64,000 nt of DNA from Deltaproteobacteria bacterium. GTDB taxonomy: Bacteria; Bdellovibrionota; FAC87; UBA2466. Both the position numbers and the translations under genes were made by a program. This document shows positions 35,968-54,936 of the stretch, piece by piece. The first letter of the stretch is position 1, and each line of letters opens with the position of its first letter. The notes under the pieces were generated by a model that saw only the letters and a list, made by a program, of their open reading frames with translations, was not told the DNA's origin and did no database searches. The stretch is taken from NCBI GenBank assembly GCA_016196825.1, contig JACPWY010000023.1, forward strand, positions 1 to 64,000. The letters run 5' to 3'.

Positions 35968-36029
35968 GGACTTCCTCAGGTACCAAGTTACTTTTCGGCC
36001 GAAAAGTAACTTGGTACCTGAGGAAGTCC
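35968..36029. repeat. 62-bp perfect palindrome, possible terminator
   Basis: Each 31-base arm is exactly self-complementary around a central GGCC, with no loop. It contains CTCAGGTACCAAGTTAC and its mirror. It lies between a plus-strand gene ending at 35941 and a minus-strand gene ending at 36033. TTTT follows on the plus side, so it could end transcription of the gene at 35648. Perfect palindromes of this length are rare in stable DNA because they extrude cruciforms. Confidence 0.85.
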
Positions 36030-49053: not shown

Positions 49054-50091
49054 GTGGCAATCCCCGTCGTCCTCCAACTCGAAAACTGGTATCGAAAAAA
49101 TAGACGCCCGCTCCCGTGGCGCACCCTCACCACACCATACCGCACATGGGTGTCTGAGGTAATGCTTCAGCAGACTACAGTCGCCGCCGTCATACCTTAC
49201 TTTGAACGATTCCTAGCCCGATTCCCAACCCTCCCCGACCTGGCCCGCGCGCCCGAAGAGGCTGTGCTCGCTGTGTGGTCGGGCCTGGGCTACTACTCGC
49301 GCGGCCGCAATCTCTGGCGGGGAGCACGCCATGTTTTGGAAAACTTCGGCGGCGCCCTTCCACCATCAGCGGAAGAACTCCTCAGGATTCCGGGTATTGG
49401 CCCCTACACGGCCGGTGCCATTGCGAGCATCGCCTTTGGTGAAAAGGCCGCGATCGTCGATGGAAATGTGAAGAGGGTTTTTGCCAGGTATTACGGCATC
49501 GAGGATTCTATCGACGACAAAGCAACAACGGGCCGCCTGTGGAGTCTCGCTCAAAAATGGGTCGACGCCTCTCAAACCCCGGCCGATCTCAACCAGGGGA
49601 TTATGGAGGTGGGCGCCACGATCTGCCGAAAAAGCTCGCCCGACTGCGATCACTGCCCACTGAGGCGCGGCTGCGTGGCTTTGGAAACTCATCGTGTCGA
49701 TGCAATTCCGGTCAGAAAGGCAAAGACCGAGAAGCGCAAACTGAATTGGTTGAGCCTGGTCTACACCAACGCAGACTCGATCTACCTAGAGAACTCCCCC
49801 GATAAGAAATGGTGGCGCGGCCTTTGGGACACTCCCCACATTCCGCTCGCGTCAGCCAAGGATTTAGAGGGAACACTCAAAAGAACCGTCGGTAAATGCA
49901 CCGCATCAATCGCTCCACTCGGTAGAGCTCAACACACGGTCACAACCAATAAGATTACCGTGCACGCCTATCGAATTAATCTCCCCCGGAAGGTTAGTTT
50001 TTCGCCACACGGCAGATGGTTCAAAACCTCCGAACTAGGTTCGCTCCCCATGTCATCGCTGGTTAGCAAGGTATTGGCCCTCTTGGTGTAG
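49054..50091 (+). CDS. mutY: A/G-specific adenine glycosylase
   Basis: The 345-residue protein removes adenine mispaired with 8-oxoguanine. The catalytic glutamate is in WVSEVMLQQTTVAAVIPYFERF, the helix-hairpin-helix is LLRIPGIGPYTAGAIASIAF, the catalytic aspartate is in AIVDGNVKRVFARYY, and the [4Fe-4S] ligands are in C-x6-C-x2-C-x5-C (CRKSSPDCDHCPLRRGC). A NUDIX-like C-terminal domain follows. The start is GTG; upstream in frame there is a stop before any better start. Confidence 0.93.
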   Translation: MAIPVVLQLENWYRKNRRPLPWRTLTTPYRTWVSEVMLQQTTVAAVIPYFERFLARFPTLPDLARAPEEAVLAVWSGLGYYSRGRNLWRGARHVLENFGGALPPSAEELLRIPGIGPYTAGAIASIAFGEKAAIVDGNVKRVFARYYGIEDSIDDKATTGRLWSLAQKWVDASQTPADLNQGIMEVGATICRKSSPDCDHCPLRRGCVALETHRVDAIPVRKAKTEKRKLNWLSLVYTNADSIYLENSPDKKWWRGLWDTPHIPLASAKDLEGTLKRTVGKCTASIAPLGRAQHTVTTNKITVHAYRINLPRKVSFSPHGRWFKTSELGSLPMSSLVSKVLALLV

Positions 50092-50102
50092 AATGGAAAA
50101 CG

Positions 50103-50585
50103 ATGCTTCACCTTCTTCTATTCCTCAATCTCGCGACGGCAGCGCTCTCCCCTCCGAAGCGCGACCTGCCCGTATTTCGCTCCAGCGGCAGCTTTACTGG
50201 GGGCGACACTCGTAACCTGAACCTCGAGAGGATTGAGCTTCTTAAGAAGGGAGACACCGAGCGAATCGACCTCACCTTCACCGCGGGCTCCCGGAAACTT
50301 CCCTCGCCTCGGATTCCCCCCTTTCAGTTGCGCTACGACCCTCAGGAGTCCGAAAATGGCCGCCTTCTTCTGCTCTTACAGGGGATTTCGGGACGAAATG
50401 TCCATCGGCTGGCTCTCAATTCCATCACGACCACGAGCGACCTCATTAAACACGTTCGAATCTTCCCCCCGCTCGAAGACGGAGACACCGTCGTAGAGCT
50501 AAGTCTGAAGAGAAAGGTCGAGTTCCGCCCCGAGCAGGAACGCAAAGGCTCATTGAGACTCGCACTCCGCGCAGCCCCTCGTTAA
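50103..50585 (+). CDS. Exported protein of unknown function, possibly AMIN-like
   Basis: The 160-residue product has a signal peptide (MLHLLLFLNLATAALS). The mature part is made of regular beta strands with basic residues (IDLTFTAGSRKLPSPRIPPFQLRYD, VVELSLKRKVEFRPEQ), resembling AMIN-type peptidoglycan-binding sandwiches, but the match is only in appearance. It follows mutY by 11 bases and may be co-transcribed. Its stop codon lies inside the left arm of the inverted repeat at 50584-50764. Confidence 0.6.
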   Translation: MLHLLLFLNLATAALSPPKRDLPVFRSSGSFTGGDTRNLNLERIELLKKGDTERIDLTFTAGSRKLPSPRIPPFQLRYDPQESENGRLLLLLQGISGRNVHRLALNSITTTSDLIKHVRIFPPLEDGDTVVELSLKRKVEFRPEQERKGSLRLALRAAPR

Positions 50586-50764
50586 GAGTGCGTAACAGAA
50601 TGAAAGTCTACTGCAGCCGGCCAAACAGACCAAGCTCTTCGTCCTCCGTGGTCGCCATCCTCAACGGCCCTTTCAGGGCCGCCTCCGGCGCCTCCCGTGT
50701 GCGTCCTCGATCTTGGTCTGTTTGACTCGGCGTCGTGACGACTTTCATTCTGTTACGCACTCTT
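50584..50764. repeat. Nested inverted-repeat element (181 bp)
   Basis: The outer arms are 25-bp perfect inverted repeats (50584-50608 and 50740-50764). Inside them is a second pair of 13 bp (CAAACAGACCAAG at 50622-50634 and its complement at 50712-50724), and near the centre a hairpin, CGGCCCT-TTC-AGGGCCG (50665-50681). It could fold into a long branched hairpin in RNA or a cruciform in DNA. It may be a MITE-like insertion, a structured RNA or an elaborate terminator. It carries no credible open frame. Confidence 0.8.
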
Positions 50765-50821
50765 TGGTTCCCCGCCCCAGACTTGGCAAACAAGGCCCCA
50801 TTTACTATTCTCTGGGAGCCA

Positions 50822-53146
50822 ATGAATAAAAAAGAATTGTCCAACAAAGAAGCGCTCGACTACCACTCACAAGGAAGACCCGGAAAGATTGAGGTCATTT
50901 CCTCGAAATCTTGCAAGACCCAGCGAGATCTTTCTCTGGCTTACTCGCCAGGAGTCGCTCAGCCCTGCATCGAGATCCACAAGAGTCCGGAGGATGTTTA
51001 CAAATACACCGCCAAGGGGAATCTGGTCGCGGTGATCAGTAACGGCACGGCCGTTCTGGGCCTCGGCAATCTAGGCCCGCTCGGAGCAAAGCCCGTGATG
51101 GAAGGCAAAGGAATCCTCTTTAAGAAATTCGCCGACATCGACGTTTTCGACCTTGAGATCGGCACTGAGGACCCCGAGAAATTCATCCAGTGCGTAAAGC
51201 TTCTTGAGCCGACCTTCGGCGGAATCAATCTTGAGGATATCAAGGCCCCCGAGTGCTTCACGATCGAGGAGCGCCTTAAGGCGGAGATGCAGATCCCCGT
51301 TTTCCACGACGATCAGCACGGCACGGCGATTATCTCCGGTGCTGCTTTCTTGAATGCCCTGCTTCTTGTTGAAAAACCGATCGACCGGGTGAAGATCGTT
51401 TTCAGCGGTGGCGGAGCGGCTGCTCTCTCCTGCGCAGAGCTCTATGTCAAGCTGGGTGCCAAGCGCGAAAATATTCTTCTGTGCGACAGTCAGGGCGTGA
51501 TATTCGAAGGGCGCAAAGAGGGAATGAATAAGTACAAGCAGGCCTTTGCGACAAAGCTCAAGGTCCGCACCCTCACCGAAGCCATGAAGGACGCCGATGT
51601 TTTTGTGGGGCTGTCTGTGGCAGGCGCTGTAACACCCGACATGGTGAAGTCGATGGCGAAGAAGCCCATCGTTTTCGCGATGGCGAACCCCGATCCCGAG
51701 ATCGGCTACGATGAGGCCACAGCAGCGCGAAATGACATTATTTTCGCGACAGGCCGGTCGGATTACCCCAACCAAGTGAACAACGTATTAGGGTTCCCGT
51801 TCATCTTTCGAGGCGCACTCGATGTCTCGGCCAAGGCCATCAATGAAGAGATGAAGATCGCAGCGGTCCACGCGCTCGCAAAGCTTGCGCGACAAGAGGT
51901 GCCCGAATCCGTTTCGAAGGCCTACGGAGGCAAGCGCTTCCGTTTTGGCCCCGAATATATTATTCCGAAACCGTTCGATTCCCGCGTGCTGCTTTGGGTC
52001 TGCCCGGCAGTGGCGAAGGCTGCCATCGACAGCGGCGTGGCTCGCCGAAAGATCGATCTGGATGAGTATGTGAATGGTCTCGAACGGCGGCTCGGAGTTC
52101 GCCAGAGCTTTGTGGCCTCGATCAGGGAAAAGATAACCACGGCCAATGAAGGCAACTCTCGGCCGGCCCATCGGATCGTATTTCCCGAAGGAGCCAACTC
52201 CCGCATCTTGCGCGCATGCGACATCATTGTTCAGGAGGGGATCGCAGAGCCCATTCTTCTTGGCAATGAGAAGCGCATTCAAACTGCGATCGAAAAGCTA
52301 GGGCTTGAGAGCTTGAAACATGTCAGGATCGTCACGCCCTCAACCGCGGAAAATCGCGAGGCCTATGCCATTGACTTGTGGGAGAGCCGCCAACGACGGG
52401 GTTTCACGCGCGAACAGGTCTACTCCCTCATGAAGAACGAGAATTACTTCGGCTCAATGATGGTCCGTCGAGGGGACGCCGATGGGCTTTTGTCAGGCGT
52501 GACTCAATCCTACCCCGAAACGATTCGACCTTTTCTGCACGTTGTGGGGGCCCGCAAGGGAATGAAGATCGCGGGCGTCTACATGATGTTGTTCCGAGAC
52601 CGCGTGATCTTCTTCGCCGATACCACGGTAAACATCGATCCAACTGCTTCTGATTTGGCGGACATCGCCATTTGCGCCGCCGAAGAGGCCCGATTCTTTG
52701 ATATTGAACCCAAGGTAGCAATGCTCTCCTTCAGCAACTTCGGGAGCAACAACCACCCGCAAGCACTTAAAGTGCGAGAGGCAACGCACCTCGTGAAGGG
52801 TCGCCGGCCAGACATCTTGATTGACGGAGAGATGCAGGCCGACACTGCTATCGTGCCCGAGATCGTTGATGAGAGCTTTCCGTTCTGTGAAATCAAGGGC
52901 GGTGCCAACGTCCTCATCTTTCCAGATCTTCAATCGGCCAATATTTGCTACAAGCTCATGCAACGCATGGGTGGCGCCGAGGCGGTTGGGCCCATTCTTG
53001 TGGGTATGAATAAGCCCATCAATGTGCTTCAGCGCTCGGCCGACGTGGATGAGATCGTCAATATGGCGATGATCACCGTGCTCGAGATCAAGAAGATGGA
53101 GCCCTTTAGGCGCCAGTCGATGGTTTCGCCAATGGCCCGAGCTTAG
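50822..53146 (+). CDS. maeB: NADP-dependent malic enzyme with a phosphotransacetylase-like domain
   Basis: The product has about 774 residues from the ATG at 50822, which has GGGAG upstream. The N-terminal part (to about 430) is the malic enzyme: [34 protein letters not shown] and [22 protein letters not shown] (Rossmann motif). The C-terminal part (about 440-770) is phosphate acetyltransferase-like, with [37 protein letters not shown], and [19 protein letters not shown]. The fusion is the standard MaeB form, converting malate to pyruvate with NADPH production; the second domain is regulatory. Confidence 0.93.
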
Positions 53147-54902: not shown

Positions 54903-54936
54903 AAACTGAGATTAATCTTTAGATTAATCTCAGTTT
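54903..54936. terminator. Perfect 16-bp inverted repeat between the two tRNAs
   Basis: AAACTGAGATTAATCT and its exact complement are separated by only TT. It follows tRNA-Thr by about 50 bases and may end or process that transcript, although it is AT-rich and has only TTTT after it. Confidence 0.5.

Follow-up and report, generated by a model that had tools for sequence, protein, structure and literature searches.

A palindrome at the stop codon upstream of maeB is probably one copy of a dispersed MITE-like family with a conserved core and varying ends

The palindrome that separates a small gene from maeB in the window (the whole 64-kb stretch of DNA analysed here) is very probably a non-autonomous, MITE-like element, inserted at the TAA with which the small gene stops and moved in trans by a DDE transposase that would most likely belong to the IS5 superfamily. 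This explanation is supported by a multi-copy family, an empty site in relatives, TWA/TA duplications in sister copies and ends that leave or rebuild a stop codon, as well as by a strict length and by co-varying stems around a conserved core. Counted against it are the lack of a matching IS in the draft genome, the right flank of the window copy, which reads TTT and not TAA, and a pattern of conservation opposite to that of ordinary MITEs. We infer the type of the transposase and, likewise, the absence of a dedicated role at maeB. The first-pass annotation had left three options for this structure, namely a MITE, a structured regulatory RNA controlling maeB and a complex terminator; further copies, the target-site duplications of sister copies and the empty site in relatives support the first. 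The locus and the parts of the element are listed below.

49054-50091, plus strand: mutY-like adenine glycosylase gene (Pfam HhH-GPD and NUDIX_4; synteny kept in relatives)
50103-50585, plus strand: 160-aa ORF with a signal-peptide-like N-terminus and its TAA stop at the left end of the element (ORF list)
50583-50585, no strand: TAA flanking the element on the left; it is the stop of the 160-aa ORF and the putative target (from TAA/TAA or TTA/TTA flanks in sister copies)
50586-50762, no strand: the whole palindromic element, putatively mobile, 177 bp long and of arm class D (limits from sister copies and family matches)
50584-50608, plus strand: left outer arm, perfectly paired with 50740-50764 (inverted-repeat search)
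50609-50621, plus strand: left internal-loop region and start of the inner stem, with a CTACT-type motif (alignments)
50622-50637, plus strand: left inner arm, co-varying with 50709-50724 (inverted repeat, covariation)
50637-50654, plus strand: conserved core motif, 5' side, CTTCGTCCTCCGTGGTCG (genome motif matches; invariant alignment columns)
50665-50681, plus strand: apical hairpin CGGCCCT-TTC-AGGGCCG, which co-varies among copies (inverted repeat, covariation)
50697-50709, plus strand: conserved core motif, 3' side, GTGTGCGTCCTCG (alignment)
50709-50724, plus strand: right inner arm (inverted repeat)
50725-50739, plus strand: right internal-loop region with a CTC...ACGA-type motif (alignments)
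50740-50764, plus strand: right outer arm (inverted repeat)
50822-53146, plus strand: maeB-type malic enzyme with a C-terminal phosphotransacetylase domain, start ATG at 50822 (Pfam malic, Malic_M and PTA_PTB)

The same annotation described three nested layers of inverted repeats around one centre, and both the coordinates and the folding bear this out. The outer arms form a 25-bp inverted repeat with no mismatch, the inner layer (50622-50637 with 50709-50724) extends over 16 bp at 94% identity and the apical layer (50665-50671 with 50675-50681) is a 7-bp stem, all three centred on 50673-50674; the 13-bp layer of the earlier description is the perfect portion of the 16-bp inner arm. Folded as RNA, positions 50570-50780 reached -98.2 kcal/mol, against -58.5 +/- 4.3 for shuffled sequences (z = -9.2). 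The left arm had also been said to include the upstream stop codon; it takes in the last two bases of this TAA (50583-50585) and not the first. In the alignments the motif CGTC is present in the core motifs on both sides, and classes A-D and several other genomes retain the CTACT-type motif.

Relatives keep the small gene before maeB, usually preceded by mutY; the homologues of the 160-aa ORF found there, with 24-33% identity, lie upstream of maeB. No Pfam family was found for this ORF. In nine distinct relatives (twelve sequences minus the duplicates L154 = L022, L158 = L024 and L157 = L079) the TAA or TAG stop of the small gene is followed by a short, hairpin-free spacer and then by maeB. 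This comparison, which covers the maeB locus only, implies that the element is an insertion at the TAA stop of the small gene. A GTG at 50735 falls within the element; it was discarded as the start of maeB, being an artefact of how the ORFs were listed.

Further copies in the genome, a check that the first-pass annotation had proposed, were present: blastn located about 40 places, spread over many contigs, in the genome to which the window belongs (3.54 Mb, 74 contigs), and the core motif CTTCGTCCTCCGCRSTCG, with up to 2 mismatches, had 78 genome matches against 2 for a reversed control. The sequence stretches around these matches, from which the copies were extracted, yielded 65 distinct two-ended copies, mostly 175-179 bp long. 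Both ends of one contig (G000:C30) lie inside class B copies (L105 and L116); the family thus fragments the assembly, and the copies counted are a minimum. With a covariance model built from the core and inner stem, matches at E <= 1e-5 were found in 21 of 369 genomes of the phylum (Bdellovibrionota, as judged from relatives), those below E ~1e-9 looking solid and the weakest (~1e-6) possibly including chance matches; the spread is patchy, with model matches in at least five families. The class A ends were absent in 13 other genomes of the family. No element match was found in plasmid and phage collections, and 14 viral contigs carrying the core motif gave one weak model match (E = 0.004). A scan of the window copy and 14 loci against Rfam 15 (E-value mode) returned no credible match and none near the gathering score.

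The termini of the copies are TWA or TA. Among the 40 copies in classes A, C and D, 25 have the same 3-mer on either side (mean under permutation 12.6, p = 0.0002), and in 24 of those 25 the flanks are TAA/TAA or TTA/TTA. Classes B and E have mainly YTA on the left and TAR on the right, as from a 2-bp TA duplication, and the flanks of class F are mixed. The window copy is flanked by TAA on the left and TTT on the right, so its duplication is not intact. A stop codon stood exactly at the element end in 38 of the 63 cases in which an end faced the 3' end of a gene (34 of the 65 elements), whereas stop codons make up 25% of the YTAR sites outside coding sequence; the excess is therefore about two-fold, these counts being approximate as genes were called as simple ORFs. 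In one case (L175) a convergent gene pair ends at a single copy, one gene at each end; by our own reading, one would encode a permease-like C-terminus and the other a beta-barrel-like C-terminus ending in F. The other copies adjoin unrelated genes in both orientations, and the stop-codon ends show no orientation preference.

At least seven arm classes have in common a core of about 75 nt and a total length of 175-179 bp, defined variants excepted. Their first bases inside the target are the following.

Class A: GAGCCTATCCCAAAA
Class B: GAACCTATCTCATAA
Class C: GAGCGCGTTGCAAAA
Class D (the window copy): GAGTGCGTAACAGAA
Class E: AACAGGGACGCATCG
Class F: ATCCCTCAGCTCGGT
Class G: CATCCCTGAGTTCG

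The variants include short-core forms of 129-150 bp, which miss part of the apical region and fit the expectation of a deletion between GTCCTCG repeats, and forms of about 200 bp with an alternative apical hairpin, found in class F and, within class A, in the single copy L272. In the latter group (L265, L269, L271, L272, L276, L286, L287 and L288) an apical module GGAGATGCCGGAACATGCC..GGCATGTTCCGG stands in place of the usual hairpin, pointing to module exchange or nested insertion. In one chimera (L251) the left arm belongs to class A and the right arm to class E, and in two relics of 36-38 bp (L252 and L255) class A-type ends are joined end to end. Single-ended matches to the terminal repeats, considered as ends of a longer autonomous copy, turned out to be truncated copies, end-to-end relics or the chimera. 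Together, the ends, the duplications and the relics fit mobilization by a DDE transposase.

The copies, ends, duplication and empty site for which we tested as marks of a MITE were all found, the exception being an identified parent IS. The element is like the RUP, Correia/NEMIS and ERIC MITEs in measuring less than 200 bp, in its terminal inverted repeats, TA termini and target duplication, and in being multi-copy, intergenic and able to fold into a long stem-loop (PMC2229807). However, those elements are known by their conserved terminal repeats, whereas here at least seven ends accompany one core and a fixed length, and no parent IS was found in the 74-contig draft. The 3-bp duplication of classes A, C and D and the 2-bp duplication of classes B and E resemble those of two groups of the IS5 family, IS1031 (3 bp; PMC2516522) and IS427 (2 bp; PMC3281130). 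Its termini may also share the GAG type of IS5-family ends. Searches of the draft genome (74 contigs, in which repeats break the assembly) turned up neither an IS nor a transposase gene whose ends match those of the element, and no DDE_3 transposase. The three DDE_Tnp_1 loci have ends that differ from those of the element, and the Y1/RAYT transposases were rejected as partners because their terminal repeats, of the CTTTTAGGCCGAATAGGTAGCGG type, are unlike it. Two of these Y1 (RAYT/TIRYT-like) genes, L165 (G000:C12) and L168 (G000:C64), lie between 39-bp inverted repeats of that type and apparently form a separate family.

Under the preferred explanation, a DDE transposase, likely of the IS5 superfamily, would act in trans on the element, and insertion at the TAA stop of the small gene would have placed there an element whose ends leave or rebuild a stop codon. 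The arms are probably kept complementary because one transposase has to fit the two ends, changes being transferred from one arm to the other probably by hairpin-templated exchange or through selection on the folded form. The core is rich in purines on the minus strand and is probably a module for recognition or structure that amplification requires.

The conservation of pairing, on which the first-pass annotation had let its proposal depend, is seen among the copies: in 37 copies and 51 pairs, 92.8% of cells were paired, against 73.0 +/- 0.6% after shuffling and at most 51.8% with partners slid, and 40 of the 51 pairs had changed on both sides (covariation score 0.494 vs 0.155). As the structure was predicted from the same alignment and the copies are related, these figures are not independent probabilities. 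The outer 22 bp of the two-ended copies are 97% Watson-Crick complementary; comparison of nearest-neighbour pairs in this segment gave 37 paired double, 54 one-sided and 3 other double changes, where, by our own estimate, a total of about 4 double changes would be expected if the arms changed independently. In some cases a paired change is confined to one copy, for example L184, L174 or L193. This shows that the arms stay matched, and covariation alone fits templated copying and selection alike.

These data bear on an alternative that we consider possible, though rather unlikely, which sees the element first of all as a mobile structured RNA or single-stranded DNA hairpin whose folded minus strand is the active form, protein-bound or copied during mobility, so that arm pairing and internal loops are selected. 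The pairs changed on both sides would agree with it, as would a total length of 175-179 bp held despite differing arm sequences. RNA folding favours the minus strand, defined relative to the window, in 63 of 65 own copies and in 24 of 27 from elsewhere, and stem mismatches on the plus strand are more often A-C than G-T (62 vs 23), the former being G-U on the minus strand. Any RNA form would therefore be the minus strand, bearing in mind that the copies share descent. The folding asymmetry, however, comes from the inner stem and loops, with little of it in the outer 22 bp (16 vs 9 copies), as expected for DNA ends; moreover, the target-site duplications fit a double-strand DDE reaction, shared descent makes the counts non-independent and Rfam holds no match. 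An idea that the minus-strand GGA motifs act as a CsrA sponge was dropped because the motif varies between classes.

In ordinary MITEs the terminal repeat is kept and the interior drifts. The present family departs from the bacterial MITEs and REPs that have been described (PMC2229807, PMC3733652): its core is conserved and its ends vary in step; no published description of it was found in the open-licence literature. One account of this inverted conservation, which we hold to be unlikely, is that a structured core that acts as folded RNA or single-stranded DNA keeps acquiring new arms that hairpin-templated copying makes complementary, so that one core could be moved by several transposases.

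Some likeness also exists to the YPAL (RU-2) repeats of Yersinia, palindromic and intergenic units of about 168 bp for which a structured RNA acting on the upstream mRNA has been proposed (PMC2229807); nevertheless, YPAL lacks TA termini and has duplications of 3-26 bp, whereas the element has TA termini and duplications of 2-3 bp. The CGTC- and GTAG-tagged REPs of RAYT/TIRYT systems (PMC3733652) are likewise palindromic and lie preferentially downstream of genes, and the element shares CGTC in its core. That arms and core are separate things, a small CGTC-tagged REP-like unit sitting in the tips of many unrelated palindromes, is nonetheless very improbable. CGTC does occur in both core sides, and in some genomes REP dimers are inserted within palindromes (PMC3733652), but the arms have the same length in every class, those of classes A-D and of several other genomes share a second conserved internal loop, and no class A palindrome with an intact core-free interior was seen, only broken or end-to-end relics. 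REPs are, in addition, palindromes of 20-40 bp with an unpaired tag at one end, and not 177-bp units, and the Y1 transposases of this genome have unrelated terminal repeats.

It is hardly credible that a cis-acting regulatory RNA or bidirectional terminator was selected at maeB. The very stable hairpin and its place between two codirectional genes would agree with this, but relatives keep the gene order with a maeB that lacks the element, other copies stand by unrelated genes and show no preferred orientation at stop-codon ends, no terminator-like hairpin with a T-tract was found at the element, and the sole promoter-like match (50783-50811) is outside it. An incidental effect on read-through into maeB may occur.

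It is by their terminal repeats that bacterial MITEs are usually recognized and classified; a family able to exchange its ends and still retain its core, architecture and length would show how a transposase parasite can switch helpers. It also represents a natural data set for weighing hairpin-templated mutation against selection on structure, and landing in stop codons with the stop left in place is a plain route to spread without harm to genes.

By length, the palindrome ranks second among the inverted repeats of the 64-kb window with arms no more than 400 b apart. The longest perfect palindrome of the window is a spacer-free, 62-bp inverted repeat with 31-bp arms at 35968-36029, GGACTTCCTCAGGTACCAAGTTACTTTTCGG, which by eye is unlike the element. 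Two other inverted repeats, at 323-399 (20 bp at 90%) and at 54903-54936 (16 bp, perfect, AAACTGAGATTAATCT), may be terminators or other repeats.
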